DNA from: Sphingobacteriaceae bacterium
GTDB taxonomy: Bacteria > Bacteroidota > Bacteroidia > B-17B0 > Aurantibacillaceae
NCBI GenBank assembly: GCA_023251775.1
Contig: JAHEYC010000020.1
Location: 1 to 45,411, forward strand
Direction of reading: 5' to 3'
Length of the DNA stretch: 45,411 bases
Of the stretch, positions 20,470 to 43,191 are shown piece after piece. The notes below the pieces were generated by a model, which made no database searches, was not told the DNA's origin, and saw only the letters and a list, made by a program, of their open reading frames with translations. The translations under genes were made by a program, and so were the position numbers. Numbering within the stretch: the stretch's first letter is position 1; each line of letters starts with the position of its first letter.

Positions 20470-20502
20470 TTTGTTCAATTCAATTTTTTGTGCTTAAATT
20501 TG
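20470..20502 (+). promoter_or_regulatory. Promoter of the trp-aro operon
   Basis: TTTG at 20470-20473, a 21-base spacer, and TAAATTTG at 20495-20502 fit the Bacteroidota -33/-7 consensus. The leader peptide ATG starts eight bases after the -7 box, so the leader transcript has a very short 5' end. Confidence 0.8.
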
Positions 20503-20510
20503 TAGCGCAA

Positions 20511-20573
20511 ATGAAAAACGTAACATTAAATAATTCATGGTGGTGGTTTGTAACAAACGTTATAAACAGCTAG
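20511..20573 (+). CDS. trpL: trp operon leader peptide
   Basis: A 20-codon frame, MKNVTLNNSWWWFVTNVINS, with three consecutive TGG Trp codons at 20538-20546 and a TAG stop at 20571. It sits between a good promoter and an intrinsic terminator, followed by trpE. Its stop codon directly follows the antiterminator arm, the geometry needed for ribosome-mediated attenuation: stalling at the Trp codons leaves 20561-20570 free, whereas reading to the stop covers it. The peptide itself probably has no other function. Confidence 0.93.
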   Translation: MKNVTLNNSWWWFVTNVINS

Positions 20574-20631
20574 AATTATTTAATTAAAGGATATTATTTC
20601 TAACCCGCTGTTTATACCAGCGGGTTTTTTT
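20546..20631 (+). promoter_or_regulatory. trp attenuator: pause hairpin, antiterminator and terminator
   Basis: Three competing structures are visible. A small hairpin GTTTG-TAA-CAAAC (20546-20558) lies just past the Trp codons and could be the pause signal. The antiterminator pairs tataaacagc (20561-20570) with its exact complement gctgtttata (20607-20616). The terminator stem aacccgctg (20602-20610) pairs with cagcgggtt (20618-20626). Because 20607-20610 is used by both long stems, they exclude each other. High charged tRNA-Trp should favour termination, and Trp starvation should favour read-through into trpE. Confidence 0.93.
20602..20631 (+). terminator. Intrinsic terminator of the trp attenuator
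   Basis: A perfect 9-bp stem (aacccgctg / cagcgggtt) with a 7-base loop is followed by a run of T to 20631. It ends 18 bases before trpE, so it acts as a conditional terminator. Confidence 0.93.
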
Positions 20632-20648
20632 ATTTATATAATATTACA

Positions 20649-22079
20649 ATGAAACTAAGAACATATCATATTCAGATCAGCCTTGATCTTCACACACCGG
20701 TAAGTGCCTATTTGTGTTTACGCGATACATATGCGGGATCACTTTTATTGGAAAGTTCTGATCATCACTCCAAAGAAGGAAATTTCTCATTTATTGCTTG
20801 TAAACCAATCTCTTCATTTAAAGTAGAAGGAAATTCTTTACGCATACTGAAGAATGATACAATAGAAACAAGAGAAATCTCCAAAGGCTCTTTAGAAAAA
20901 GAACTTACCCAATTTGTTTCTTCCTTTGAAACAGACAAGATACCTGTATCTTTTTCTTACAGCGCAGTATTTGGATATTCGTCATTTGACGTGATCGATA
21001 TGATCGAAGAAAATTTACAAACTTCACACCGATCTGAAATTCCTGAAGTGCACTACGCGTTCTATTCGCTCTTGCTTGTTTTTGATCACGCAAAGCATCA
21101 AGCGCATATTGTTGCTTTTGCGCCTTCTATCGACGAAGCAAAACTCAAGGCCTTAAAATTAAGTGAACAATTAAATACTACAACTACTCCCACAAATTCC
21201 TTCGAAACCATAGGAGAAATTTCTTGCGCAACCGGCGAACAAGAATTTCTAGCGAATGTTGCAAAAGCTAAAGATCATTGCAAACTTGGCGATGTATTTC
21301 AACTTGTTCTGTCGCGCCGCTTTAAACAAAAATTTATTGGTGATGAATTTAATGTATACCGTTGCTTAAAACAGATCAACCCTTCACCTTATCTGTTCTA
21401 TTTTGACATGGGTTCATTTAAATTATTTGGTTCATCGCCCGAAGCGCAATTAGTAGTAAAAAACAATGTGGCCGAGATCCATCCTATTGCCGGAACTTAC
21501 AAACGCACCGGCAATGATGAAGCGGATAAAGTGAATGCGAAACAATTAACAGAAGATCCTAAAGAAAATTCGGAGCATTATATGTTAGTTGATCTTGCAC
21601 GAAACGATCTGAGCACGTGTTGCAGCGATGTAAAAGTGGAACGCTTAAAAGAATTGCAGTTCTACTCACATGTTATTCATTTAGTTTCTAAGGTTACAGG
21701 AAAATTAAAAGAAGGAATAAATGGGATCAATTTACTCTATCGCTCATTTCCGGCAGGAACTTTAAGCGGCGCTCCAAAACACAGAGCAATTCAACTTATT
21801 CGTGAATACGAATCGGAACCAAGGAATTTTTATGGAGGTTGTGTTGGATGCATTGAGACCAACGGAAATATCAATCATGCCATTATGATCCGTTCTTTTT
21901 TAAGCAGTAATAATGAGTTACATTTCCAAGCCGGAGCAGGGATCGTGATAGATTCGATACCTGAGAACGAGTTAAATGAGATCAACCACAAAACAGGCGC
22001 CTTAAAAAAAGCGCTAAAAGAAGCCAATAAATTAAATATTATTCCAACCTTTGCACAAGATGAAACTCTTAGTACTTGA
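20649..22079 (+). CDS. trpE: Anthranilate synthase component I
   Basis: Converts chorismate to anthranilate, using ammonia delivered by TrpG; first committed step of Trp synthesis. The 476-residue protein has LLES (33-36), the known Trp feedback-binding motif, so allosteric inhibition by Trp is expected in addition to attenuation. The C-terminal chorismate-binding domain has GSSPEAQLVV, HPIAGTYKRTG, EHYMLVDLARND, FPAGTLSGAPK and FYGGCVGC. It begins 18 bases after the attenuator terminator and overlaps trpG by 20 bases. Confidence 0.97.
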   Translation: MKLRTYHIQISLDLHTPVSAYLCLRDTYAGSLLLESSDHHSKEGNFSFIACKPISSFKVEGNSLRILKNDTIETREISKGSLEKELTQFVSSFETDKIPVSFSYSAVFGYSSFDVIDMIEENLQTSHRSEIPEVHYAFYSLLLVFDHAKHQAHIVAFAPSIDEAKLKALKLSEQLNTTTTPTNSFETIGEISCATGEQEFLANVAKAKDHCKLGDVFQLVLSRRFKQKFIGDEFNVYRCLKQINPSPYLFYFDMGSFKLFGSSPEAQLVVKNNVAEIHPIAGTYKRTGNDEADKVNAKQLTEDPKENSEHYMLVDLARNDLSTCCSDVKVERLKELQFYSHVIHLVSKVTGKLKEGINGINLLYRSFPAGTLSGAPKHRAIQLIREYESEPRNFYGGCVGCIETNGNINHAIMIRSFLSSNNELHFQAGAGIVIDSIPENELNEINHKTGALKKALKEANKLNIIPTFAQDETLST

Positions 22080-22626
22080 TAATTACGATAGCTTTACGTA
22101 CAACCTGGTACACTTAGTTGAAAAAGTAAGTAATGCCAAGATCAGCGTTGTTAGAAATGATAAAATTTCTTTAGAAGAGATCGGCAATTTTGATAAGATC
22201 CTTTTATCTCCCGGACCCGGTTTGCCAAAGCACGCGGGCATCATGCCGCAATTATTAAATACGTATTCTTCCAGCAGATCTATTCTTGGTGTATGCTTGG
22301 GCATGCAAGCTATTGCCGAAAATTTTGGCGGCTCATTACAAAATCTTGAAACAGTTTATCACGGCATTGCCACTTTGGTAAATATTAAAACAAATGACTC
22401 TCTGTTCACCGGTTGTCCTACAACTTTTAAAGTTGGACGTTATCATTCATGGGTTGTTGACGCAAACACTCTTCCTGCTGTTTTAAAAGTAACCGCTGTT
22501 GATGATCAACATAACATCATGGCGCTTGAGCATAAAACGCTAGATGTAAAAGGTGTTCAATTTCATCCTGAATCAATTCTTTCTGAATACGGTGAATTGA
22601 TGATCACCAATTGGCTTAAGGCCTAG
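22060..22626 (+). CDS. trpG: Anthranilate synthase component II (glutamine amidotransferase)
   Basis: Releases ammonia from glutamine for TrpE. I choose ATG at 22060 (MKLLVLDNYDSFTYNL), which gives the standard N-terminus and 188 residues; a TTG three codons earlier is possible but unneeded. Class I amidotransferase features: SPGPGLPKHAG (50-60), nucleophile C79 in GVCLGMQ, and the His-Glu pair in VQFHPES. The dedicated partner gene directly after trpE argues for Trp rather than folate synthesis. A 64-base gap before trpD is the widest inside the operon. Confidence 0.96.
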   Translation: MKLLVLDNYDSFTYNLVHLVEKVSNAKISVVRNDKISLEEIGNFDKILLSPGPGLPKHAGIMPQLLNTYSSSRSILGVCLGMQAIAENFGGSLQNLETVYHGIATLVNIKTNDSLFTGCPTTFKVGRYHSWVVDANTLPAVLKVTAVDDQHNIMALEHKTLDVKGVQFHPESILSEYGELMITNWLKA

Positions 22627-22690
22627 TCTACTCCATACACCATTTTATTGGTCGGCTTTTGCTGAATTATTTAACCTTAATACTAAAACT

Positions 22691-23695
22691 ATGTCAAAAA
22701 AATATCTATTGCATAAATTTTATGCAAACCAACACCTAAATTCCGAAGAAGCAGAAGAATTGATGTTGCTCATCACTCAAGGCTCATTTTCTGAAATGGA
22801 AATTGCAATTATTCTCATGTTCTATAAAACAAATTCTGTTACACTAAACGAATTAAGTAGTTTCAGAAAAGTGCTTTTGGAAAGATCATTGAAGTTTTCC
22901 ATTCCATTTAAGGCAATTGATGTTTGCGGTACAGGCGGTGACGAAAAAGACACCTTCAATATTTCCACATTAAGTGCATTAATTATCGCTGCATGTGGAT
23001 ACAAAGTTGTTAAGCACGGAAATTACGGTGTTAGTTGTACAAGTGGTTCATCAAATATCCTTGAATACTTTGGATATAAATTCACCAACAAAACGGAGAT
23101 CTTATTAGATCAGTTGCAAGAAACTAATATTTGTTTTCTGCACGCACCACTTTTTCATCCCGCATTAAAACATGTGGCGCAAGTAAGAAGATCCATGGCT
23201 ACCAAAACAATTTTTAATTTATTAGGCCCATTAGTTAATCCTTGCACAATTTCTCATCAATTCATAGGCATAAATAGTTTGGAAGTGATGCGCTCTTATG
23301 ATTATCTTTTAGAAAAAACAAAACTAAAATATTCCTTAGTGCATAGTATCGATGGTTATGATGAGATCTCACTAACTTCTCCTTTCAAGATCACAGGAAG
23401 CCTAGGTGAACAATTGATCCATCCAAGTGAATTAAGAATTCCCATGGTAAAACCCAATGAGATAAGATCAAGTGGAAGTATTGAAAGTGCATCCAAGATC
23501 TTTATGGACGTTTTGAAAGATAAAGCAACTACTTCTCAAAAGAACGCCGTACTTATTAATTCGGCTTTTGCCATTCAACTGATCACACATAAATGCATTG
23601 AAGATTGCATCCAAGAATCGAAAGAAGCGATCGAAAGCTTAAAAGCACTTAACACATTTAAACAACTCACAAACAAAAAACATGAATACGCTTGA
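22691..23695 (+). CDS. trpD: Anthranilate phosphoribosyltransferase
   Basis: Joins anthranilate to PRPP. The 334-residue protein has the phosphoribosyl-binding glycine motif DVCGTGGDEKDTFNIST near 77 and the KHGNYGVSCTSGSSNILEYFG block that shapes the anthranilate site. NLLGPLVNP is a further family mark. The C-terminal part after FKITGSLGEQ is somewhat divergent, but no key block is missing. It overlaps trpC by 14 bases. Confidence 0.95.
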   Translation: MSKKYLLHKFYANQHLNSEEAEELMLLITQGSFSEMEIAIILMFYKTNSVTLNELSSFRKVLLERSLKFSIPFKAIDVCGTGGDEKDTFNISTLSALIIAACGYKVVKHGNYGVSCTSGSSNILEYFGYKFTNKTEILLDQLQETNICFLHAPLFHPALKHVAQVRRSMATKTIFNLLGPLVNPCTISHQFIGINSLEVMRSYDYLLEKTKLKYSLVHSIDGYDEISLTSPFKITGSLGEQLIHPSELRIPMVKPNEIRSSGSIESASKIFMDVLKDKATTSQKNAVLINSAFAIQLITHKCIEDCIQESKEAIESLKALNTFKQLTNKKHEYA

Positions 23696-24485
23696 AAAAA
23701 TAGTATTGGATAAACGCCAATTCGTAAAAGAAAGAAAAGAGTTAGTGCCCATTAAACTACTCGAGAAAAGTTTGTATTATGAAAGCAAAACTGTTTCCTT
23801 AAAAGATTATATTCTTAGAAAGGATAAGAACGGCATCATTGCTGAAATAAAAAAACGATCTCCCTCTAAGGGCAATATCAATTTACACGTTGATATTGAA
23901 AAAACCTCAATAGGCTATATGCAAGCCGGAGCCAGCGCCATTTCAGTGCTTACCGACACCCCCTATTTTGGTGGGAAAAATGAGGATCTAACCTTAGTTA
24001 GAAAATGTAATTTTTGTCCTGTATTACGAAAGGATTTTATCATTGACGAATATCAGATCATTGAATCAAGAGCAATAGGTGCAGATGCCATTTTACTGAT
24101 CGCCTCTATTCTTACCAAAGAGGAAATAAAAAAATTCACAGATATTGCTCACGCCTTAGGACTTGAAGTTCTTTTAGAGATCCATTCGCGAGATGAAATT
24201 GACAAGATCAGCGAGAACAATTCCATCGTAGGAATAAATAATCGAGATCTTGGAACACTTTCCATTGATCTGCAAAACTCTAGTTTGCTTCTTCCCTATT
24301 TGAAGGGAATTGATGTAAAGATCTCTGAAAGTGGAATTAGATCAGCTGAAGATGTTTTAGAGTTAAGATCCATAGGGTTCAATGGATTTCTCATTGGCAG
24401 TTTATTCATGAAAAGTAGTCGACCACACTTAGCTTTAAAACAATTTGTAGAAGAATTACAGAATAAAAAATTGAGTTATGCTTAA
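23682..24485 (+). CDS. trpC: Indole-3-glycerol phosphate synthase
   Basis: Closes the indole ring from carboxyphenylaminodeoxyribulose phosphate. A 267-residue TIM barrel with the family blocks IIAEIKKRSPSKG, ISVLTDTPYFGG, VLRKDFIIDEYQI, GINNRDLGTLSID and SESGIRSAEDV. The catalytic Lys and Glu pattern (EIKKRSPSKG, RKDFIID) is intact. It overlaps both neighbours (14 bases with trpD, 8 with trpF), so translational coupling is likely. It is separate from trpF, unlike the fused E. coli enzyme. Confidence 0.96.
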   Translation: MNTLEKIVLDKRQFVKERKELVPIKLLEKSLYYESKTVSLKDYILRKDKNGIIAEIKKRSPSKGNINLHVDIEKTSIGYMQAGASAISVLTDTPYFGGKNEDLTLVRKCNFCPVLRKDFIIDEYQIIESRAIGADAILLIASILTKEEIKKFTDIAHALGLEVLLEIHSRDEIDKISENNSIVGINNRDLGTLSIDLQNSSLLLPYLKGIDVKISESGIRSAEDVLELRSIGFNGFLIGSLFMKSSRPHLALKQFVEELQNKKLSYA

Positions 24486-25116
24486 GTTAAAAGTTTGTGG
24501 ACTCACAGATCCACAAAACATAAAAAAAGTAATTGAATTGGAACCGGACATGATAGGACTAATTTTTTATTCGCCTTCCAAAAGGGATGTGAGTGATAAA
24601 GGTGCAACGGAATTATGTGAAATGATCCCTTCGCACATCAAACGTGTTGGTGTTTTTGTTGATTCGCCGGTTAATTTTATTAGCGATGTTATTGAAGCCT
24701 TTAAATTAGATGTCATTCAACTTTATCACGATGATATGTCATCCTTTCAACAATTGCGTTCTAAAGTTCATATCATTAAGGCTATTTCTATAAGTAAAGA
24801 AGCAGATCTTTTAAGAACAATGGATTACATCACGCAAGCCGATCTTTTTTTATTCGACACAAAAGGAGAGAATCCGGGAGGTAACGGAAAAAAATTTGAT
24901 TGGCGAATTCTTCAAAACTACGAGGGAAAACTACCATTTATTGTAAGTGGTGGGATTGATGAAAATGATGCAGACGCGATAAAGCAAATACAACACGCGC
25001 AATTTTATGGCATTGATATCAATTCCAAATTTGAAACTAAACCAGGACTAAAAAATATAAAAGCAATACAACACTTTAAAAAAGAATTATATGCAAACAT
25101 TGAACATGCCGGATAA
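24478..25116 (+). CDS. trpF: Phosphoribosylanthranilate isomerase
   Basis: Amadori isomerase between TrpD and TrpC. The 212-residue TIM barrel begins LKLKVCGLTDPQNI with the catalytic Cys in the usual place, and has GLIFYSPSKRDV, RVGVFVDSP, QLYHDD, LFDTKGENPGGNGKKFDW and FIVSGGIDENDAD. The closing GIDINSKFETKPGLKN is the usual phosphate-loop end. It overlaps trpC by 8 bases and trpB by 26 or 11 depending on the trpB start. Confidence 0.95.
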   Translation: MLKLKVCGLTDPQNIKKVIELEPDMIGLIFYSPSKRDVSDKGATELCEMIPSHIKRVGVFVDSPVNFISDVIEAFKLDVIQLYHDDMSSFQQLRSKVHIIKAISISKEADLLRTMDYITQADLFLFDTKGENPGGNGKKFDWRILQNYEGKLPFIVSGGIDENDADAIKQIQHAQFYGIDINSKFETKPGLKNIKAIQHFKKELYANIEHAG

Positions 25117-26278
25117 AAAAGGCTATTACGGAGAATACGGCGGGGCTTATATTCCTGAATTACTTTTTAATAACATAAATGAATTAGAACAAAATTACTT
25201 GAAGATCATTCATTCAACTGAATTTCAGAAAGAATACCATGATCTGCTTGAGAATTATGTTGGAAGACCAACACCCTTATATCACGCCAAGAATTTATCG
25301 GAACAGTTCAAAACTAAGATCTATTTAAAGCGTGAGGATCTGTGTCACACCGGTTCGCATAAAATAAATAATACCATTGGACAAATACTAATTGCAAAAG
25401 CCTTAGGTAAAAAAAGAATTCTAGCCGAAACAGGTGCGGGTCAACATGGCGTGGCTACTGCAACCGTTTGTGCATTATTAAAACTTGAATGTATTATTTA
25501 CATGGGGCAAATTGATATGCATCGACAAGAAGCAAATGTGATTCGCATGAAAATGCTGGGCGCAACGATCATTCCTGCAATTTCGGGAAGTAAAACATTA
25601 AAAGATGCTACCAACGAAGCTATTAGAGGATGGATAAATGATCCCGATTCATATTATCTTATTGGATCTGCCGTTGGTCCACACCCTTACCCGGATATGG
25701 TTGCAAAATTTCAAAGTATTATTAGTAAAGAAATAAAACAACAATTACTAAAAGCAGAAGGTATGGAAGAACCGGATCTGGTAATTGCATGCGTTGGTGG
25801 TGGAAGTAATGCTGCAGGTGCTTTTTTTGAATTTATTGATTCTAAAAAAACAAAACTGATAGGCGTTGAAGCGGCGGGTAAAGGTATTGATACGGGATAC
25901 AGTGCTGCAACAATGACATTAGGAACAACCGGGATCTTGCATGGATCGCGCTCAATTATTATGCAAACAAAAGACGGACAAATTATAGAACCACATTCCA
26001 TTTCTGCCGGATTGGATTATCCCGGCATTGGTCCATTACATGCATTTTTAGGAAAACGAAAAAGAGCGCTTTATTTAAATGTAACAGATGAAGAAGCATT
26101 GCAAGCTGCTTTTAATTTAACAAAGCAAGAAGGAATTATTCCTGCACTTGAAAGCGCACATGCCTTAGCTATTTTAAATAAACTCGAATTACATAAAGAC
26201 CAGGTCCTAGTTATTAATCTTTCAGGAAGAGGTGATAAAGATCTTCCAACATATTTAGATCATTACCATGAAAAATAA
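25091..26278 (+). CDS. trpB: Tryptophan synthase beta chain
   Basis: Condenses indole with serine using PLP. The 395-residue protein has GYYGEYGGAYIPELL at its N-terminus, the PLP lysine K91 in HTGSHKINN, the substrate loop AETGAGQHGVATA and the phosphate-binding GGGSNAAG. It matches the standard TrpB1 type that partners with TrpA. Two starts are possible, ATG 25091 or ATG 25106; both keep all domains. It overlaps trpA by 11 bases, fitting equal synthesis of the two subunits. Confidence 0.97.
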   Translation: MQTLNMPDKKGYYGEYGGAYIPELLFNNINELEQNYLKIIHSTEFQKEYHDLLENYVGRPTPLYHAKNLSEQFKTKIYLKREDLCHTGSHKINNTIGQILIAKALGKKRILAETGAGQHGVATATVCALLKLECIIYMGQIDMHRQEANVIRMKMLGATIIPAISGSKTLKDATNEAIRGWINDPDSYYLIGSAVGPHPYPDMVAKFQSIISKEIKQQLLKAEGMEEPDLVIACVGGGSNAAGAFFEFIDSKKTKLIGVEAAGKGIDTGYSAATMTLGTTGILHGSRSIIMQTKDGQIIEPHSISAGLDYPGIGPLHAFLGKRKRALYLNVTDEEALQAAFNLTKQEGIIPALESAHALAILNKLELHKDQVLVINLSGRGDKDLPTYLDHYHEK

Positions 26279-27050
26279 AATTGATATTCTTTTTGAAACG
26301 AAAGAAAAAGACATACTATCGGTATTTTTTACCGCCGGGTATCCGCAGTTAAATGATACAGGAAGAATTTTAAAAGAACTGCAAGAAAACAATGTTGATC
26401 TTATTGAATTTGGCATCCCTTATTCAGATCCTTTGGCAGATGGGCCTGTGATCCAAAATGCAAGTCAGCAGGCGATCAATAACGGCATGAATTTGAATTT
26501 GCTTTTTGAACAGCTATTCAAAGAAACATCAACCATTACTATTCCCATAATTTTAATGGGTTATTTGAACAGCGTGATCCAATTTGGCCTTGAGGAATTT
26601 TATAAAAAATGCTTTGAGAATTCTGTGAGTGGTGTCATTCTTCCCGATCTTCCTTTAAGTGAATTTGAGGACGAACATAAACGCTTTGCTGATAAATATA
26701 ACGTAAAGGTTATTTTTCTCATCACTCCAAACACATCAATTACGCGAATAAAACAAATTGACGCTTTGAGTACAGGTTTTATTTATGTTGTTTCTTCGAA
26801 TAGTATTACAGGAAAAGGTCATACAGACTTTGAAGCTCTGGAAAAATTCTACAGACAATTACATCAAATTCCTTTAAAAAATAAAACACTCATCGGTTTT
26901 GGCATCAACACTAATTCAAGCTTTAAAAAAGCCACACAATTGGCTAATGGCGCTATCATTGGAACAGCTTTTATTAACGCACTATCAAAAGAACAAAGTA
27001 TCTCTGCATTTATAAATTACATTAATACTACTCAACCAATACTATCATGA
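26268..27050 (+). CDS. trpA: Tryptophan synthase alpha chain
   Basis: Splits indole-3-glycerol phosphate and passes indole to TrpB through a tunnel. The 260-residue TIM barrel has FFTAGYP, the catalytic Glu E47 in IEFGIPYSDP and Asp D58 in LADGPVIQ, then ILMGYLNS, GVILPDLPLSE and FLITPNTS. The phosphate-binding end IGFGINT and GAIIGTAFI is intact. Its stop overlaps the aroF ATG in a 4-base ATGA junction, tying the trp genes to the shikimate genes. Confidence 0.96.
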   Translation: MKNKIDILFETKEKDILSVFFTAGYPQLNDTGRILKELQENNVDLIEFGIPYSDPLADGPVIQNASQQAINNGMNLNLLFEQLFKETSTITIPIILMGYLNSVIQFGLEEFYKKCFENSVSGVILPDLPLSEFEDEHKRFADKYNVKVIFLITPNTSITRIKQIDALSTGFIYVVSSNSITGKGHTDFEALEKFYRQLHQIPLKNKTLIGFGINTNSSFKKATQLANGAIIGTAFINALSKEQSISAFINYINTTQPILS

Positions 27051-28054
27051 TCATTCAACTTAAAAACAAAATAGACTCCAATGAATTGGAAGCTATCACA
27101 AAAACTCTAAAGGAAGAACATATCAAATCAAACTTTGTTGAAACACAACATAACAAATACCTTGTTTGCTTCACCAAAACCGAATTTGATATTCGAAAAT
27201 TTGGTCATTTACCCGGTGTGCAAGACGTACATTCGGTTAGCGATGATTACAAATTGGTAAGTAAAAAATGGAAATTAAATAATAGTACGATCCAACTTTG
27301 CGATACCATTACTTATACAAAAGAGCCAATTGTTATGGCGGGACCATGTTCGGTTGAAAACGAAGAGCAAATGGAAAAGACCGTTTCGCATTTGGTTAAA
27401 AACAATATTAAGATCTTACGAGGTGGTGTTTTTAAACCACGTAGTTCGCCCTATGCATTTAGAGGACTAGGCATCGAAGGTTTAAAAATGATGCATTCGT
27501 TTTGCAAACCATATGATATAAAAATTGTGACAGAAGTAATGCAGGTTTCACAAATTGAGGAAATGCTTCCTTACGTAGATGTTTTTCAAGTTGGTGCTAG
27601 AAATTCACAGAACTTTAATTTATTGGACGCACTTGGTTCGGTAAATAAACCGGTCTTATTAAAAAGAGGTGTGAGCGGAACAATTGATGAGCTCTTGCAA
27701 TCGGCCGAGTATATTTTTTCAAAAGGAAATGAAAAGATAATGCTGTGCGAACGGGGTATTAGAACTTTTGAGAATTCGTACCGAAATACGTTCGACATTA
27801 ATGCGATCCAGGTTCTAAAAGAAAAATCGCATTTGCCGGTGATCGCCGATCCAAGCCATGGCGTTGGCATTCGCGATCATGTATCAAAATTGGCCCTTGC
27901 TTCTTTAGTTGCAGGCGCAGATGGCGTTATTTATGAAGTACATCCTAGTCCCGAAGAGGCTTTATCCGATGGATATCAAACCTTAAACTTTGAAGAATCG
28001 GATAATTTAATAAGGCAAATACACAATTTACGCAGCTTTTTAAATAGCAATTAA
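27047..28054 (+). CDS. aroF: 3-deoxy-7-phosphoheptulonate (DAHP) synthase, AroF / type I-beta
   Basis: First step of the shikimate pathway, from PEP and erythrose-4-phosphate. The 335-residue protein has a ~75-residue ferredoxin-like N-terminal domain (MIIQLKNKIDSNELEAI ... DYKLVSKKW), as in the Thermotoga enzyme, where it mediates feedback inhibition. The barrel follows with IVMAGPCSVEN, ILRGGVFKPRSSPYAF, VFQVGARNSQNF, PVLLKRG, ADPSHGVG and EVHPSPEEALSDG. There is no chorismate mutase fusion. It is joined to trpA by a 4-base overlap, so it should be under Trp attenuation. Which amino acid inhibits the enzyme cannot be read from sequence. Confidence 0.93.
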   Translation: MIIQLKNKIDSNELEAITKTLKEEHIKSNFVETQHNKYLVCFTKTEFDIRKFGHLPGVQDVHSVSDDYKLVSKKWKLNNSTIQLCDTITYTKEPIVMAGPCSVENEEQMEKTVSHLVKNNIKILRGGVFKPRSSPYAFRGLGIEGLKMMHSFCKPYDIKIVTEVMQVSQIEEMLPYVDVFQVGARNSQNFNLLDALGSVNKPVLLKRGVSGTIDELLQSAEYIFSKGNEKIMLCERGIRTFENSYRNTFDINAIQVLKEKSHLPVIADPSHGVGIRDHVSKLALASLVAGADGVIYEVHPSPEEALSDGYQTLNFEESDNLIRQIHNLRSFLNSN

Positions 28055-28079
28055 ATCCGTAATTTCATGCGTAATTGTT

Positions 28080-29129
28080 ATGGCAGAAAAAAACAATATC
28101 CTATTTGATACCGATACATTTTCAAAACTTAATTCCTTTTTAAAAAAGGGAAAGTATTCGCGCTTGATCGTACTTGCAGATTCTAATACAGTTACCGAAT
28201 GCTATCCAATTCTCGCAAAAAATTGCGCAGCCATACAAAAAGCAGATATTTTAGAAATTGATTCGGGTGAAGCATTTAAAACATTAGACACTTGCAAAGA
28301 ACTTTGGGAGACATTGAGCGAAGCGCGAGTTGACAAAAATTCTTTACTAATTAATGTTGGCGGAGGCGTTGTTACCGATATTGGCGGATTTGTAGCAAGC
28401 GTTTACAAAAGAGGAATTGATTTTATTCATATTCCTACCAGCTTATTGGCCATGGCCGATGCAAGCGTTGGCGGAAAATGCGGCGTTGACTTGAATAGTT
28501 TGAAAAATCAATTGGGTACTATTACCCAAGCAAAAGGGATATTTATTAATTCTGTTTTTTTAGGGACACTTTCTCAACGTCATTTAGCAAATGGAATTGC
28601 TGAAATACTAAAAATGGGACTCATTGCAGATGCCAAACTGGTAAAGGCCATGCAAGACAATAAAACAGAACTTGATACTTTGATCAAAAAGAACGTGGCG
28701 CTCAAAATGGCCATTGTAAAAAAAGATCCACACGATAAAGGCGTTCGAAAAATATTGAATTTTGGTCACACTGCTGGACATGCCATTGAAAGTTGTTTTA
28801 TGGGCACAGAAGATGAATTGCTGCACGGTGAAGCCATTGCCATTGGAATGCTTATTGAAAGCATAATTGCATTTGATAAAAAAATGATAAAGACCAACGA
28901 GCTTCAAACCGTTATTGATCTTATAAAACCAAATTATACGGTGATGGAATTTTCAGAAGCAGAACAAGAGAAAATAAAGGAATTAATGCTTCACGATAAG
29001 AAGAATAAAAATGACACTATTCGCATGAGCTTGATCACTAAAATAGGCGCATGTAAATTTAATGTAGAAGTGAATGTAGCACAAATTCAAAAAGCGTTCA
29101 AAACCTATCACCTTATAATTGGCGCTTAA
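28080..29129 (+). CDS. aroB: 3-dehydroquinate synthase
   Basis: Second shikimate step, NAD- and metal-dependent. The 349-residue protein has the glycine-rich NAD block VGGGVVTDIGGFVAS, then YKRGIDFIHIPTSLLAMADASVGGKCGVD and the metal-site region with NFGHTAGHAIE and LLHGEAIAIGM. The length is normal. ATG at 28080 lies 25 bases after aroF; its end overlaps the aroA start by 11 bases. Confidence 0.95.
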   Translation: MAEKNNILFDTDTFSKLNSFLKKGKYSRLIVLADSNTVTECYPILAKNCAAIQKADILEIDSGEAFKTLDTCKELWETLSEARVDKNSLLINVGGGVVTDIGGFVASVYKRGIDFIHIPTSLLAMADASVGGKCGVDLNSLKNQLGTITQAKGIFINSVFLGTLSQRHLANGIAEILKMGLIADAKLVKAMQDNKTELDTLIKKNVALKMAIVKKDPHDKGVRKILNFGHTAGHAIESCFMGTEDELLHGEAIAIGMLIESIIAFDKKMIKTNELQTVIDLIKPNYTVMEFSEAEQEKIKELMLHDKKNKNDTIRMSLITKIGACKFNVEVNVAQIQKAFKTYHLIIGA

Positions 29130-30327
29130 AGATCACATACCCTCCATTGAATTGCCCGGCTCAAAAAGCATTAGTAATCGTTTGCTAATGATAAAAGCGA
29201 TTGGTAAACTCAATTTTGATATTGAGAATTTGTCGGATAGTGATGATAAAAAATTACTTATCAAAGCACTTAATGATATTGATTCAGGAAAACAGGAGAT
29301 CAATGTTGGCGACGCGGGAACAACTATGCGTTTTTTGTGTGCATACCTTTCTTGCCGGGAAAATAAAACTTTCATTTTAACGGGAAGTGATCGAATGAAA
29401 GAACGACCAATTAGAGAATTGGCTGATTCTTTGAATGCTATTGGAGCTAATATCACTTATTTGGAGAAACAGGGTTATCCGCCTGTAAAAATACAAGGTA
29501 AAAAGATCGAAACAAATAAGATCTCAGTGAATGCAAATGTGAGCTCTCAATTTGTTTCTTCTATTCTATTGGTATCGCCCACATTTAAGAATGGATGCAC
29601 CATAAAATTAAATGGCGAGATCGTTTCTGCACCTTATATTACCATGACAATTGAATTAATGCGTTCTTTTGGAATTGAAATAAATTGTGATGATCACACA
29701 ATTAATGTAAAGCCCGGAACTTATTCATCAAAAACAAATTCCTTTTATAACGAAAGCGATTGGAGTGCGGCGAGTTATTTTTACTGCGCCCTGGCTCTTG
29801 GAAGTTTTGAAAAGGTAGAACTCAAAGGTTTGCTTCAAAACAGCATTCAAGCCGATTCAAAGATCGTTGACATTTTTAACGGACTTGGCATAAGCTCAAA
29901 CTTTGAGACGAACAGTGTTATAGTTTCCAAAGAAAATAAAAACGCGAAACATTTTTCTTTCGATTTTACTGATTGTCCGGATATAGCGCAAACCCTTGCT
30001 GTTACTTGCCTTGGGCTGGGAATCACAGCTGATCTTACCGGCTTAAAGACCCTAAAAATAAAAGAAACCGATCGCATCATAGCTTTAAAAAATGAATTGA
30101 AAAAATTTGGAGCCATTGTTGAAATAACGCCGAATTCTCTTCACATAAAAGGATATAATACCGTAAATAAAAATAAAGAAATTTTAGTGAACACTTATAA
30201 TGATCATCGCATGGCTATGAGTTTTGCTTCCTTGAAATTTATTTACCCGAATATGGTAATAGAAAATAAAGAAGTAGTAAGTAAATCATTCCCGAAATTC
30301 TGGGAGCAATTCTCAAAACTCTCATGA
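29119..30327 (+). CDS. aroA: 3-phosphoshikimate 1-carboxyvinyltransferase (EPSP synthase)
   Basis: Adds PEP to shikimate-3-phosphate. The 402 residues carry all core blocks: LPGSKSISNRLLM (13-25), GDAGTTMRFLCAYLS, DRMKERPIRELADSLNAIGA, NVSSQFVSS, KIKETDRIIALKNELKKFG and NDHRMAMSFA. The start must be TTG 29119, because an in-frame TAA directly precedes it and no ATG comes before LPGSKS. The N-terminus is therefore about ten residues shorter than in E. coli. It overlaps aroB by 11 bases and the next gene by 4. aroC, aroE, aroK and a dehydroquinase gene are not in the window. Confidence 0.95.
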   Translation: MALKDHIPSIELPGSKSISNRLLMIKAIGKLNFDIENLSDSDDKKLLIKALNDIDSGKQEINVGDAGTTMRFLCAYLSCRENKTFILTGSDRMKERPIRELADSLNAIGANITYLEKQGYPPVKIQGKKIETNKISVNANVSSQFVSSILLVSPTFKNGCTIKLNGEIVSAPYITMTIELMRSFGIEINCDDHTINVKPGTYSSKTNSFYNESDWSAASYFYCALALGSFEKVELKGLLQNSIQADSKIVDIFNGLGISSNFETNSVIVSKENKNAKHFSFDFTDCPDIAQTLAVTCLGLGITADLTGLKTLKIKETDRIIALKNELKKFGAIVEITPNSLHIKGYNTVNKNKEILVNTYNDHRMAMSFASLKFIYPNMVIENKEVVSKSFPKFWEQFSKLS

Positions 30328-37229: not shown

Positions 37230-38228
37230 TTATAAACGCGGACAATTTTTAATTTCTTGAACTTTACTTTTCTTGCCTAAATAGGTAAGCGATACTTCAA
37301 ATGCACCTCTTGCTTTTGATGTACTTCTTAATGAAGAGGTATTCATATCGTAACCTAACTTAATAATGTAATTATCTTTCTTCAAACCAATGTAAGCAAT
37401 GTTAGCATCAGAAGTTCTGTAAACATATCCTGCCAATAGATAGAATTTTTCGCCTTTTACGAAATATCCACCATCAATAGCATAAGTTTGTTCAATATTA
37501 TTTGTTTGCTTCATCACTAAAACCTTAGGTATGAAATAGAACAACTCATTTACATTCACGCGAACACCACCATGAGCATAAAAGCGCATTGGTAAACGGT
37601 TATTACCTCCAAAAAATGTTTCGCGAGGTTGAGTAAGATTAAAACCGCTGATCCCTATGAACGGATTGATGCGTGATTGTTGTTTACTGTAATAATATAA
37701 AGCACCAAAATTCACCACTTCCTGAAATTGCACGCCGCGTGTAAATGTTTCGTTATTTGGTAAATTCTTATCGAATGATCCTCCGGAAGAGTTGCTCCAC
37801 TGTGCATCATACGTTAAGGCCTGATACTCTATCTTTTTTTGTTTAACACCTAATTGCATTCCAAAACTTAATTGATGGTACTTTTCTTTATCAATTGGTA
37901 AAAGATAAGCGCCTGAACCAAGGATCTCGAGTACATTATAATTACTTAAGCCTGCACGCATGTTTGATATTTGTCCGCCATAACTCCATTTGGTCTTTGT
38001 TGGCATATCAAAACTTACCAATGCCGTTGTAAAAGGTTTGAACGCAATAGCGCTCCATTGTGTACGATATTGTGCATGTGCACGCATTTTAGTTTCAATT
38101 AAACCTGTCATTGCGGGGTTTAAGTAAATAGGTGCTGCGTCGTACATACTCAAGTGAAAATCCTGAGCAATAGTTCGCCCTATCAATGCACAAAGTAAAA
38201 CGGTTGTTAATCTTATGTTTCTTTTCAT
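37230..38228 (-). CDS. PorP/SprF family T9SS outer membrane protein
   Basis: A 332-residue outer membrane beta-barrel with signal peptide MKRNIRLTTVLLCALIGRTIAQ. The family block comes right after: FHLSMYDAAPIYLNPAMTGL, then AQYRTQWSAIAFKPFTTALVSFD. The body is alternating amphipathic strands. In Flavobacterium johnsoniae, SprF is needed for secretion of the SprB adhesin, and PorP/SprF-like proteins pair with type B cargo. Here the gene directly follows the 1,290-residue cargo gene (5-base gap), so it is its likely partner (inference). It is one of two such genes in the operon. Confidence 0.9.
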   Translation of the reverse strand: MKRNIRLTTVLLCALIGRTIAQDFHLSMYDAAPIYLNPAMTGLIETKMRAHAQYRTQWSAIAFKPFTTALVSFDMPTKTKWSYGGQISNMRAGLSNYNVLEILGSGAYLLPIDKEKYHQLSFGMQLGVKQKKIEYQALTYDAQWSNSSGGSFDKNLPNNETFTRGVQFQEVVNFGALYYYSKQQSRINPFIGISGFNLTQPRETFFGGNNRLPMRFYAHGGVRVNVNELFYFIPKVLVMKQTNNIEQTYAIDGGYFVKGEKFYLLAGYVYRTSDANIAYIGLKKDNYIIKLGYDMNTSSLRSTSKARGAFEVSLTYLGKKSKVQEIKNCPRL

Positions 38229-38233
38229 GATTC

Positions 38234-41200
38234 TTATCTCATTAATGTAACATCACCATTTTTTCTCACGGTTCTGTTGTTATACAGGTCAACTTCTAAG
38301 GTCCATACATAAACGCCTACAGGTTGCTCTTTTCCATCTTTCTTTCCATCCCATCCTTCTTTTTGATCTTCACTTTCGTAGATCTTCTCTCCCCAATTAT
38401 TATAGATCCTGAATTTCATTTTATTGAATGGTCCGCCTTTTACATAAAGTCTGTCATTGTTACCATCACCATTAGGTGTAAATCCGGTTGGCACTTGCGG
38501 TATCAAATTCACTTCAATGGTTTTTATAACTGTATCTGTGCAACCCTGATTATCAATAACGGTTAAGGTTACATAATAAACGCCACCGTTTTGATAACTG
38601 TGAGAAGGAGCGCGACCCGTATCAGAAAGTTCATCTCCAAAATTCCAGATCCAAGTAACTAAGCTACCTGTTGGTGTTGAGAAATCGGAATAATAAACAG
38701 GTTCTTGCGCAACTGTTGGATTATTTGTCATACCAAACTCTGCATTAGGTTTTGAATTTATATTTACAATTTTAGTTACGCTGGCCGAACATTGTGTGGC
38801 GGCAATAACTTCTTTTAGATCAACACTAACCGGACCATTTTGAATGAAGGTAATATTACTTGGTGTTTGCGCCGAAGATAAAGTTGGAAGCGCTTTTGGA
38901 CCAAAGAACCAAGTGAAACTTCCGTTAGGAGGTACCGAAAGATTTGTAAGTTGCGCAACAATTCCTACGCACGCATTGTTCATTGAGAAATCCGGAGTTG
39001 GTAAAGGGTTCACTGAGATATTCTTACTAATAGTATCTATACAAACGATACTCAACGAGTTTGTACCCGTTACCGTAAATGTAATATGATAAATGCCGGC
39101 CGCAGTATAAGTTGTTATAACCGATCCTACGCCGATACTTGTTAATCCATTATTGAAATTCCAATTTGCTCCCGTGATATTAGTACCATTTGGATTTGAG
39201 ATATTCACAAAACTAACCGGGTCACCGACGCAACGTTTGGTTGAAAAACTAAAGTCGGCTTTGGGCGAAGGCACAAATGTAATTGTGAACGAGCGGCTAG
39301 ATGGACAGTTTATACCCGTAACACTTGCACTATTTAATGTAATAACAACACTTCCTGTGGCAATATCTGATTGACTTGGATAATAAATTCCTCCCAGTGC
39401 ATAATTATCAGGGAAAAATCCTCCGTTCAAAGGTAAACCCGGGTTAAGACTATTGCTTCCAACGCTACCTCCGGCGATCCAAAACCCTGCAGTTGTATAT
39501 CCACTTACTGATCCGGATAAAGTGATCGCAGCAAATTGACAAACGGATGTAGAAGAGTTAACACTGATGAATGGAAGTTTAATAATAGTAACTGTGATCG
39601 TATTGCTTACTGCAGGACAAAACCCTCCTACACTACCGGCAACAAAGGTTAAAGTATTTACACCGGCTAGTGTATCGTTCAAACTTATTACATAATTTGC
39701 ATCGGTAGGTGGAACAGGAGTAAACGCTCCAGAACCATTGGTGGTTGTCCAACTTATTGCACCTGCACCTCCACCGGTTACTGTGCCTTGTAAAGCAATT
39801 ACTCCAACGCTTGCACAAACTGTTGGTTGCGTTGCCAGGGTTAAACTTGGTTGTGGTTGAATATTTATGACCATGTTACCGGCTACATTGGAGCATAAAG
39901 CAGTATTATCTATTACGGTTAACGTTAATTGTATCTGAGGCTGTAAAAGGTCGGTTCCTCCAAAAAAATACGTTGTACTTAATGATGTGTTTGAAGGAGA
40001 AAAGAATCCTTGTCCATTTCCGGTTGACCAACTATACGTAATATTAGCTCCGGTAACAGTTCCTGTGATCGCAACACTTTGGCTATTTGTACAAGCAATA
40101 GTACTGCTTAAAACGCTTACAGTTGGGGGGTTTACAAATCCAACTGTATATGTTGCAGATGTATTCACACATCCAACAGACGGTCCCTGACTTGATAATA
40201 CCAATGTTACTCCATTGGCTGCAAGATCAGCAATTGAAGGAGTATAGGTTGTATTAGCACCCGGAGCTCCGAACGAACCTCCATTTCCTCCGGTCCATGT
40301 AGCACCAAGAGAATTAGAAAAAGATCCTGCACAAGTTAATGGTATAACATTATTTTTACACTGTAAAGTTGGCGTAACTGCACCTGCAACAGAAGGTGGT
40401 TTATTGATAAGCATGATCACTGAGTCTTTTTTAGGTACACAATTACCAACGCTGGTTAAATAGAATTTAATGCTTGGGAGAAGCAGATCGGCAGGAGATA
40501 AACTATAATTTGTGGTTACTGTATTTAATGTTGACGAATAAGCTGCACTAATTGTTCCTGTTCCATTAGCAGCTGTCCAACTTCCTGTTATTGCTCCACC
40601 TGTAACTGTACCGCTTAATACAGCAACAGCATTTGGAGTTGCACATACAGGCGTGATAGTTCCGCATGTTACGAACGTACGACGTAAGAAACTCGACATA
40701 TAATAAAAATTCATTCCCCCTCCTGCGCTACCGTCAAAAATTCCAAGGGCAAATTCACCGCTTGGGGCAACATTGGCGTTACCTACTGTATATGATCCAA
40801 TCGGAATCTGCGCCAAACTGAATGGGATCTGTGCAGCAACATATTGGTTACCTGTGCCGGGGACAACAGTAAACTGACCTGCTGTGATCAAAGCGGTACT
40901 ACCATTAATTGTAAATGAACCTTGTGCTCCATTCTTACATAAAATGTTCAAGAAATACTGATTTGGTTGATTTCTTGAAAATGCCACTAAGGTTGATCCC
41001 GCACAACTCAAAGGTGGTAAAATGGCAGATCCACTTTCGCAACCAATACCATCGGCTTGATAGCAATATACGGGCTTATTTGCCTGTACATACGTCATAG
41101 GAGTAGTTACAGGATAAAAATATGTTTGGCCCTTATTAATTGTCACAGCGGTAGTAGCACTTAGTGCGTTAGTAATCAGAACAGAAGTGAAATTCTCGGT

Positions 41201-42106
41201 ACCTACAATATAGCCGCCTTCCAAGGCTCCCGGATTCATATTGCCTTTATTCATGATGTAATCCTTTCCAACAATATCAACAGGAACGATCTGATCGCCG
41301 ATCAAATCGTGACAGCCTCCGCTTGGATTTCTTACAGAGTCATCAGCAGTTGTTACAGCAATAGGTTTGTTAGAAGTAATTATCGTACCGGAAAGATTAT
41401 TTCCCGGTACATTTGTGTTTTGTACACTATTCTCCAAAGTATAAGCATCACCCGGGTTAACGAGCAAAATACTGTAGGTGATATTTGCCACATGTCCAAT
41501 AATATTACATTTTGGTGTTATCCATACAACGGTATTTGGTTTTGTGCCTACAAGATTGATCTGTTGTTTTGGTTGGTTAACACCAGGAGGAGTACCGCCA
41601 AAATCTGTTTTGAATTGGTTGAACCAATTGGTTTGATGAGGAACTACGAATTCAGTGCCTAAGCCATTCTGGCCTTTTAAGGACATTGTTTCTGGATTAT
41701 TTCCTGTTGTAATAACATCATATGCGATCGAAATAGTAGAGGTAGAAGAGAAATATAAACCGAAAGGTACAACCTGATCGGCCGGCCTTACCTCTAATGA
41801 ATCCCAACCTCTATTCCCAAGTGTAGCAGGGGCATCTTTCCAAAACGTATAATCAAAAACGCTATTAGCAGGGATCTGAATAGTTGTGTCGTACTTATGA
41901 AAACAAGCAGGCATAGAAGGTTGCCTTAGCCTCACCGTTGTAGTTGGTGCTGCAAATGTTGCAATGTGAACTTTGATAGGCTGCCTTGCAGCGTGATCGG
42001 GAGTTACCCAAGGAGCTGCGAACCAAAAGGCAGTATCAATTTGCGAAAACGATGGTGTTACATTAAACAGGGTTAATAGTAACAATATGATCAGTTTATT
42101 TTTCAT
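38234..42106 (-). CDS. T9SS type B cargo: IgGFc-binding-like N-terminal domain, Ig/PKD repeats, sorting domain
   Basis: A 1,290-residue secreted protein. A signal peptide (MKNKLIILLLLTLFNVTPSFSQ) is followed by a ~450-residue region resembling the IgGFc-binding N-terminal family (TTAVTINKGQTYFYPVTTPMTYVQANKPVYCYQADG). About five or six Ig-like repeats of ~90 residues with paired cysteines follow (~485-960). Next come PKD-type domains with WNFNNG, WFFGPK and WIWNFGDE. The last ~90 residues form a type B gliding-motility-associated sorting domain (VPTGFTPNGDGNNDRLYV ... YNNWGEKIYES ... PVGVYVWTL). It should pass the outer membrane by T9SS and be displayed or released. Binding of IgG is not implied. 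Confidence 0.9.
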   Translation of the reverse strand: MKNKLIILLLLTLFNVTPSFSQIDTAFWFAAPWVTPDHAARQPIKVHIATFAAPTTTVRLRQPSMPACFHKYDTTIQIPANSVFDYTFWKDAPATLGNRGWDSLEVRPADQVVPFGLYFSSTSTISIAYDVITTGNNPETMSLKGQNGLGTEFVVPHQTNWFNQFKTDFGGTPPGVNQPKQQINLVGTKPNTVVWITPKCNIIGHVANITYSILLVNPGDAYTLENSVQNTNVPGNNLSGTIITSNKPIAVTTADDSVRNPSGGCHDLIGDQIVPVDIVGKDYIMNKGNMNPGALEGGYIVGTENFTSVLITNALSATTAVTINKGQTYFYPVTTPMTYVQANKPVYCYQADGIGCESGSAILPPLSCAGSTLVAFSRNQPNQYFLNILCKNGAQGSFTINGSTALITAGQFTVVPGTGNQYVAAQIPFSLAQIPIGSYTVGNANVAPSGEFALGIFDGSAGGGMNFYYMSSFLRRTFVTCGTITPVCATPNAVAVLSGTVTGGAITGSWTAANGTGTISAAYSSTLNTVTTNYSLSPADLLLPSIKFYLTSVGNCVPKKDSVIMLINKPPSVAGAVTPTLQCKNNVIPLTCAGSFSNSLGATWTGGNGGSFGAPGANTTYTPSIADLAANGVTLVLSSQGPSVGCVNTSATYTVGFVNPPTVSVLSSTIACTNSQSVAITGTVTGANITYSWSTGNGQGFFSPSNTSLSTTYFFGGTDLLQPQIQLTLTVIDNTALCSNVAGNMVINIQPQPSLTLATQPTVCASVGVIALQGTVTGGGAGAISWTTTNGSGAFTPVPPTDANYVISLNDTLAGVNTLTFVAGSVGGFCPAVSNTITVTIIKLPFISVNSSTSVCQFAAITLSGSVSGYTTAGFWIAGGSVGSNSLNPGLPLNGGFFPDNYALGGIYYPSQSDIATGSVVITLNSASVTGINCPSSRSFTITFVPSPKADFSFSTKRCVGDPVSFVNISNPNGTNITGANWNFNNGLTSIGVGSVITTYTAAGIYHITFTVTGTNSLSIVCIDTISKNISVNPLPTPDFSMNNACVGIVAQLTNLSVPPNGSFTWFFGPKALPTLSSAQTPSNITFIQNGPVSVDLKEVIAATQCSASVTKIVNINSKPNAEFGMTNNPTVAQEPVYYSDFSTPTGSLVTWIWNFGDELSDTGRAPSHSYQNGGVYYVTLTVIDNQGCTDTVIKTIEVNLIPQVPTGFTPNGDGNNDRLYVKGGPFNKMKFRIYNNWGEKIYESEDQKEGWDGKKDGKEQPVGVYVWTLEVDLYNNRTVRKNGDVTLMR

Positions 42107-43170
42107 TATTTTTTCTTCTGACTTTTAATATTAGTTTTCATACTATTGTCTATAGTATTTAATTCATCTTCATCGGCAGCTTGAACTTTATCCTTAACAA
42201 CACCTTTTTTGCTGAGCAGTGTGTAAGTTAAGATCAATTCATGCGAACCGTTATTGTATTTACGTAAGTTGTTCATCGCAATATCGTAACTATAGCCTAA
42301 TGTAAATTGTTTACTAACGGTTACACCAAGAAGTCCGCAGAATGAATTATTTTGCCATTGTTTAGCAATTGAGCTTACCGTTTTTGCATGTCGGAAACTA
42401 AAACCTGCCCATAACATTGATTTGTAAGTACACTTCACATTGTACTCAATTTCAAAAGGTGCAGGTGTATTAAATCGCATTAAAATAGAAGGTTGAAGAA
42501 CATATTCTTTTTTCTTTTTATCAAGCACTTGATTAAATCCTGAATAAATATAGAAGTGAGGTGTTAAACGGCCAATGGTATTATCCCAATGGATCTTCGC
42601 GCTTAATAATTGCTGCCCGCTAACTCCAAAAAAGAATTTTTTGTGATATAATAAAAATCCGCTGTTGGCGTCCATCGCATTCGCATTCAAAATACTTGAG
42701 GATAAGAAATTATCATCTTTATCGTAAGGCTTCGCGTTATAAACCTTCACATTATATTGAACAAGCCCAAGAGAAAGACCAAAACCCATTTTCCAATGAT
42801 CATTTAATTTTAAATGATAACTGTATGAACCATAAATTGAGGTACGATTAAGTAATCCCATTTGATCATTGAGCACCATTCCGCCAACAGCCATTTCCGG
42901 ATGTTTTTTTAATGTTCCATACCCCGAAGCCATGTAGGCGCGTGGGGCTCCATCAAATCCTGTCCATTGCAAACGCGAGCCTGCATTAAACTGCATTCCT
43001 TTGAACGTACCGGCAAAAGCAGGGTTGTACAAATACTGATTAAGTAAAATATTGGTGAATTGCGTTTGTTGTTGCGCTTTTGTTTGAGTACACAAAAGCA
43101 TCAAAGCTACACACGTTAGTGCAAACATTTTTTTACTTGATCTTAGTTCTATCATTTTGATCCTTGACAT
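42106..43170 (-). CDS. PorP/SprF family T9SS outer membrane protein
   Basis: A 354-residue second member of the family. The signal peptide (KKMFALTCVALMLLCTQTKAQ) is preceded by a 13-residue extension if the first ATG is used; starting at the second Met (MIELRSS) looks as likely. The family block is QFTNILLNQYLYNPAFAGTFKGMQFNAGSRLQWTGF. The mature part is a predicted beta-barrel ending in a charged tail (DKVQAADEDELNTIDNSMKTN). It follows the upstream cargo gene by 21 bases and shares one base with the next cargo gene, so it probably serves the cargo at 43192-45411. Confidence 0.9.
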   Translation of the reverse strand: MSRIKMIELRSSKKMFALTCVALMLLCTQTKAQQQTQFTNILLNQYLYNPAFAGTFKGMQFNAGSRLQWTGFDGAPRAYMASGYGTLKKHPEMAVGGMVLNDQMGLLNRTSIYGSYSYHLKLNDHWKMGFGLSLGLVQYNVKVYNAKPYDKDDNFLSSSILNANAMDANSGFLLYHKKFFFGVSGQQLLSAKIHWDNTIGRLTPHFYIYSGFNQVLDKKKKEYVLQPSILMRFNTPAPFEIEYNVKCTYKSMLWAGFSFRHAKTVSSIAKQWQNNSFCGLLGVTVSKQFTLGYSYDIAMNNLRKYNNGSHELILTYTLLSKKGVVKDKVQAADEDELNTIDNSMKTNIKSQKKK

Positions 43171-43191
43171 ATCTTAATTTTTTCTAAACAA

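Follow-up and report, generated by a model that had tools for sequence, protein, structure and literature searches.

A probable ribosome-mediated trp attenuator with a predicted near-leaderless start in a Bacteroidota genome

In the 45,411-nt stretch of DNA analyzed here (the window), a short leader open reading frame is preceded by a promoter of the Bacteroidota type and followed by trpE, the first gene of a trpEGDCFBA-aroF-aroB-aroA cluster. Our analysis makes it highly probable that the region is a classical ribosome-mediated attenuator that responds to charged tRNA-Trp and regulates trpEGDCFBA, probably together with the downstream aro genes. The cluster extends from 20649 to 30327, with trpE being followed by trpG, trpD, trpC, trpF, trpB, trpA, a DAHP synthase gene, aroB, and aroA. 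Most of these genes pass their NCBIfam cut-offs, trpG by way of a subfamily model, while trpE (424 bits against TIGR00564, cut-off 518) and trpF are family matches that fall under the strict equivalog cut-offs. A TrpR repressor was not found in the window's genome.

Elements of the trpE leader region

The features of the region are as follows:

20470-20473, + strand: -33 element TTTG, read from the sequence, with a 21-nt spacer to the -7 box
20495-20502, + strand: -7 box TAAATTTG, fitting the Bacteroidota consensus TAnnTTTG
20507, + strand: predicted transcription start, assuming a box at -12 to -5
20511-20573, + strand: leader peptide ORF MKNVTLNNSWWWFVTNVINS, 20 codons, kept in relatives
20538-20546, + strand: Trp codons 10-12 (TGG TGG TGG), the proposed sensor; WW/WWW is conserved across the class
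20546-20567, + strand: protector (1:2) hairpin, 20546-20554 with 20559-20567, 9 bp, from the free fold
20561-20570, + strand: antiterminator 5' arm (region 2) UAUAAACAGC, exact complement of the 3' arm
20571-20573, + strand: stop codon TAG of the leader ORF, from the sequence
20602-20632, + strand: intrinsic terminator, stem 20602-20610/20618-20626 followed by a T run, from sequence, folding, and compensation
20607-20616, + strand: antiterminator 3' arm (region 3) GCUGUUUAUA, exact complement of the 5' arm
20649-22079, + strand: trpE, anthranilate synthase component I, the first gene of the cluster, with TIGR00564 as its best NCBIfam match

The primary sigma factor of Flavobacterium uses a TAnnTTTG box at -12 to -5, according to PMC9723704, and only 8 nt separate the end of the -7 box from the ATG at 20511; a 5' UTR of ~4 nt is therefore predicted. 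No second TAnnTTTG box, exact or near, was found between the leader and trpE. An upstream GTG start in the same frame at 20490 (MLKFVAQMKNV...) was rejected, as it lies 5' of the predicted transcription start.

The antiterminator helix is an exact 10 bp pairing of -10.7 kcal/mol and the terminator stem an exact 9 bp pairing of -14.2 kcal/mol, with the terminator 5' arm overlapping the antiterminator 3' arm. The antiterminator 5' arm begins 14 nt after the last Trp codon, and the protector hairpin can be extended by 20541-20544/20569-20572. As a whole, the leader region folds with a z-score of -5.2 (0/200 shuffles were equally stable), and when the 300 nt preceding trpE were dinucleotide-shuffled, any short ORF carrying paired Trp codons arose in 7/2000 cases. 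The original prediction had described the -33/-7 promoter, an ATG eight bases past the -7 box, the 20-codon leader with three consecutive Trp codons, the 10-bp antiterminator, the 9-bp terminator sharing bases with it, and the 14 bases between the Trp codons and the antiterminator arm. All of these elements lie exactly where it had placed them, but it had overlooked the protector hairpin. Since this hairpin is present as well, the classical set of elements is complete.

Conservation and compensation among relatives

If the leader is a sensor, its Trp codons should be kept in other trp loci of the Bacteroidia. Using ATG-started ORFs of 8-45 codons that contain WW or WxW and lie <=300 nt upstream of trpE, a leader with paired Trp codons was found at 63/77 Bacteroidia loci, about a dozen of which share a genus or family and are thus not independent, versus 1.35% of 7700 shuffles. 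With a wider distance limit, a leader is found at 66 loci, 60 of which have a terminator between it and trpE. Among these relatives, the Trp codons are mostly located 11-16 nt ahead of an arm complementary to the terminator. At seven loci (L038, L050, L058, L059, L062, L066, and L070), WRW or WLW takes the place of WWW, leaving the Trp codons one codon apart.

The location of the leader is also informative. Where trpB is the first gene, as in the Rikenellaceae (L005, L012, L013, L014, and L016) and Phocaeicola (L010), the leader precedes trpB, and in three genomes of one family (L106, L107, and L112), a second WWW leader with a terminator precedes a separate trpD unit. The element therefore tracks the point where the trp transcription unit begins, not trpE itself. 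At the six trpB-first loci and at L015, a Trp-rich leader lies ~1.4-1.5 kb upstream of trpE, apparently before trpB. In a search of 197 genomes of the class with the covariance model R1, the matches L101-L105 and L108-L111 proved to be ordinary terminators away from trp genes and were left uncounted.

Pairing of the stems is retained even though their sequences are not. The antiterminator arms differ fully between lineages, yet remain complementary: TATAAACAGC/GCTGTTTATA in the window, CGGGGTTCTG/CAGAACCCCG in L063, and AGCAGTAGGC/GCCTACTGTT in L083. When arms were swapped among 53 representatives, the mean duplex energy was -8.6 kcal/mol as compared to -12.0 kcal/mol for a locus's own arms, and 0/10000 permutations were as good. 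As base composition might account for some of this difference, arms were also shuffled in place; own arms were better than the shuffled mean in 56/60 loci and beyond z = -1.64 in 39/60. The antiterminator taken alone reaches p <=0.05 at 29/60 loci, many of the distant loci not being clearly above chance.

Across 18 aligned near relatives, antiterminator pairing holds in 98.4% of cells, a percentage equaled by 12/500 shuffles, and terminator pairing in 97.8%, versus 28-62% when the partners are slid. Both stems show double-sided changes: from G-C to A-U at antiterminator columns 54/110, which is a single A-U/G-C exchange distinguishing two sister lineages from the rest, and at terminator columns 100/124 and 101/123. 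The RNAalifold covariation term by itself is small (-0.46), and the case for compensation is consequently built upon the arm swaps, the shuffle tests, and the pair counts. Both of the comparative checks proposed with the original prediction, namely conservation of the Trp codons and covariation in the two stems, were thus borne out.

A proposed switch and its alternatives

The nascent RNA was folded with the positions beneath the ribosome footprint kept unpaired. With the RNA extended to 20617, a ribosome stalled at the first, second, or third Trp codon leaves the antiterminator as the minimum-energy structure, whereas the terminator is obtained if the ribosome sits at the stop codon or is absent. 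The original prediction likewise had a ribosome at the stop codon covering the antiterminator arm. Once transcribed, the full terminator is more stable than the antiterminator in all ribosome states, and due to this difference in stability, the switch must be kinetic. The decision is likewise a kinetic one in enteric bacteria.

From these features, the following sequence of events can be proposed. RNA polymerase would start at ~20507, and a ribosome would load onto the AUG, ~4 nt into the transcript. Under Trp scarcity, this ribosome would presumably stall upon codons 10-12 and cover a strand of the protector hairpin, which otherwise would occupy the antiterminator arm. The arm at 20561-20570 would thus be freed to pair with 20607-20616 upon its emergence, before the 3' half of the terminator is made, and transcription would continue into trpE. 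When Trp is plentiful, a ribosome reaching the stop codon would mask 20561-20570, which should permit the terminator at 20602-20626 to form and yield a short RNA of ~125 nt having its 3' end near 20631. Without translation, the protector and terminator would form together, creating an off state. It had also been argued that initiation must couple to transcription as a consequence of the short 5' UTR; such coupling is common to all ribosome-mediated attenuators, and the short 5' UTR gives no special reason for it.

Taken alone, a terminator ahead of trpE would also be compatible with other readers, such as a constitutive attenuator or one controlled by a protein (TRAP-like or other), in which case the short ORF would be incidental. 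We regard this as very improbable, as an incidental ORF is difficult to reconcile with paired Trp codons at 63/77 loci versus 1.35% by chance, or with their placement, in most cases 11-16 nt ahead of an arm still complementary to the terminator. Furthermore, inspection of the leader by eye revealed no (G/U)AG repeat array. A marginally smaller chance still is given to a leader acting mainly in trans, as an sRNA or peptide like the proposed rnTrpL/peTrpL of Sinorhizobium meliloti, with attenuation being secondary. The terminated RNA predicted here would begin almost at the AUG, as does rnTrpL (PMC7298713). However, the entire anatomy suits termination in cis, the leader position tracks the start of the trp unit in the trpB and trpD cases, and a role in trans would be compatible with attenuation anyway. 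Ribosome-mediated trp attenuation, as originally predicted, is accordingly the best explanation, having passed the comparative test in its Trp codons, its compensated stems, and its constant position before trp genes.

Relation to known systems and the predicted near-leaderless start

At the gathering threshold, an Rfam search of the window finds tRNA only, while a lax search yields matches to RF00513 and RF01692. Against RF01692 (Bacteroid-trp; threshold 49), the window's copy reaches 26.8 bits, and against RF00513 (Trp_leader; threshold 41), 27.3 bits (E = 0.0011), both scores being below threshold. Five relatives (L041, L044, L045, L046, and L065) pass the RF01692 threshold, and L020, a congener of the window's genome, passes that of RF00513 with 42.4 bits. 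Judged by its own features, the region has the short ORF with clustered Trp codons before trp genes that marks the attenuator class, and folding and compensation support an exclusive antiterminator and terminator sharing one arm, together with a protector. The window's copy is a well-formed, diverged example of the known Bacteroidota trp attenuator class.

Bacteroid-trp, the "Bacteroidete tryptophan peptide leader RNA" of Weinberg et al. 2010 (PMC2864571), is likewise a Bacteroidota Trp leader peptide RNA located before trp genes, although the relatives passing RF01692 have stem sequences unlike those of the window. The enteric-type trpL attenuator of RF00513 shares the consecutive Trp codons, protector, antiterminator, and terminator, and the window aligns with it end to end, but the window differs in having no Shine-Dalgarno sequence, a predicted 5' UTR of ~4 nt, and a genome in which TrpR was not found. 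In F. psychrophilum, leader-peptide attenuation of amino-acid operons has been inferred from the transcriptome and RNA structure; the phylum and inferred mechanism are the same, whereas the elements named in the part of that article drawn upon here lie before genes including pheA and hisG, with trp not being among them (PMC9723704). The original prediction was of a complete attenuator with a WWW leader peptide in a Bacteroidota genome, its compact form being singled out as notable. The example is sound, but its novelty is weaker than claimed, given the Rfam entries RF01692 and RF00513 and the flavobacterial attenuators described in PMC9723704. Its value is rather that of a clean and complete example from a Bacteroidota group missed by the Rfam models; the Bacteroid-trp and Trp_leader models catch just part of the class-wide set of trp attenuators.

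The sole unusual trait of the window's switch is the predicted position of the peptide start codon, almost at the 5' end of the RNA. An exact -7 box lies <=40 nt from an in-frame ATG in 50/66 leaders and <=10 nt in 36/66, as compared to 0.9% of shuffled upstreams. In the window's genome, the gap is <=10 nt in 2/19 promoter-gene pairs (median 39), a small sample drawn from ~356 kb. Published values are 5.5% for leaderless mRNAs in F. psychrophilum and, for UTRs of less than 10 nt, about 3.7% in B. thetaiotaomicron. The short gap is thus enriched among trp leaders, with the 5' UTR length being predicted from box position. Four of the five loci above the Bacteroid-trp threshold have gaps of 18-20 nt, and the fifth, L065, has one of 4 nt. 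A Shine-Dalgarno core was found in 0/65 leaders, as would be expected because mRNAs of this phylum lack Shine-Dalgarno sequences (PMC6847099). On balance, we lean slightly toward near-leaderless initiation (a 5' UTR of 0-6 nt and no Shine-Dalgarno sequence) being the usual trp attenuator design across Bacteroidia, not a local oddity.

The description of the leader as nearly leaderless and devoid of a Shine-Dalgarno sequence is therefore well supported as a prediction, but as a novelty it is preceded by the established leaderless trp leader of S. meliloti, trpL/rnTrpL (PMC7298713). There, too, a short leader peptide with Trp codons has its AUG at or very close to the 5' end; the S. meliloti RNA starts with the AUG itself, whereas the start predicted in the window is ~4 nt upstream, and the S. 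meliloti attenuator belongs to another phylum and controls only trpE(G) (PMC7298713). Should the near-leaderless design be true, the first ribosome would be on the RNA as the AUG exits the polymerase, in a non-Shine-Dalgarno phylum, and its confirmation would make these leaders a natural setting in which to examine how the ribosome and RNA polymerase are synchronized in the absence of a Shine-Dalgarno sequence.

Within the window's own genome, a scan of 311 kb plus the window revealed no second promoter/short ORF/terminator module of the same shape, and hisG lies directly 3' of another gene without space for a leader. Across the genus, the trp operon has a patchy distribution: trpB exceeds its cut-off in 11 of the 40 genomes (G000-G036, G230-G232), trpE is present in about the same genomes, and the operon is absent from G001, a complete one-contig genome. 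It looks likely that the whole operon and its attenuator have been lost or transferred. In the window's genome (G000, 98.5% complete), PF00800 (prephenate dehydratase) had no match despite the presence of shikimate and trp genes, possibly reflecting Phe auxotrophy or a missing contig. Elsewhere in the window, the minus strand at 37230-45387 encodes long, secreted-looking proteins with C-terminal ends of the gliding-motility type, as well as PorP/SprF-like outer membrane proteins, which, judging the translations by eye, are suggestive of type IX secretion.
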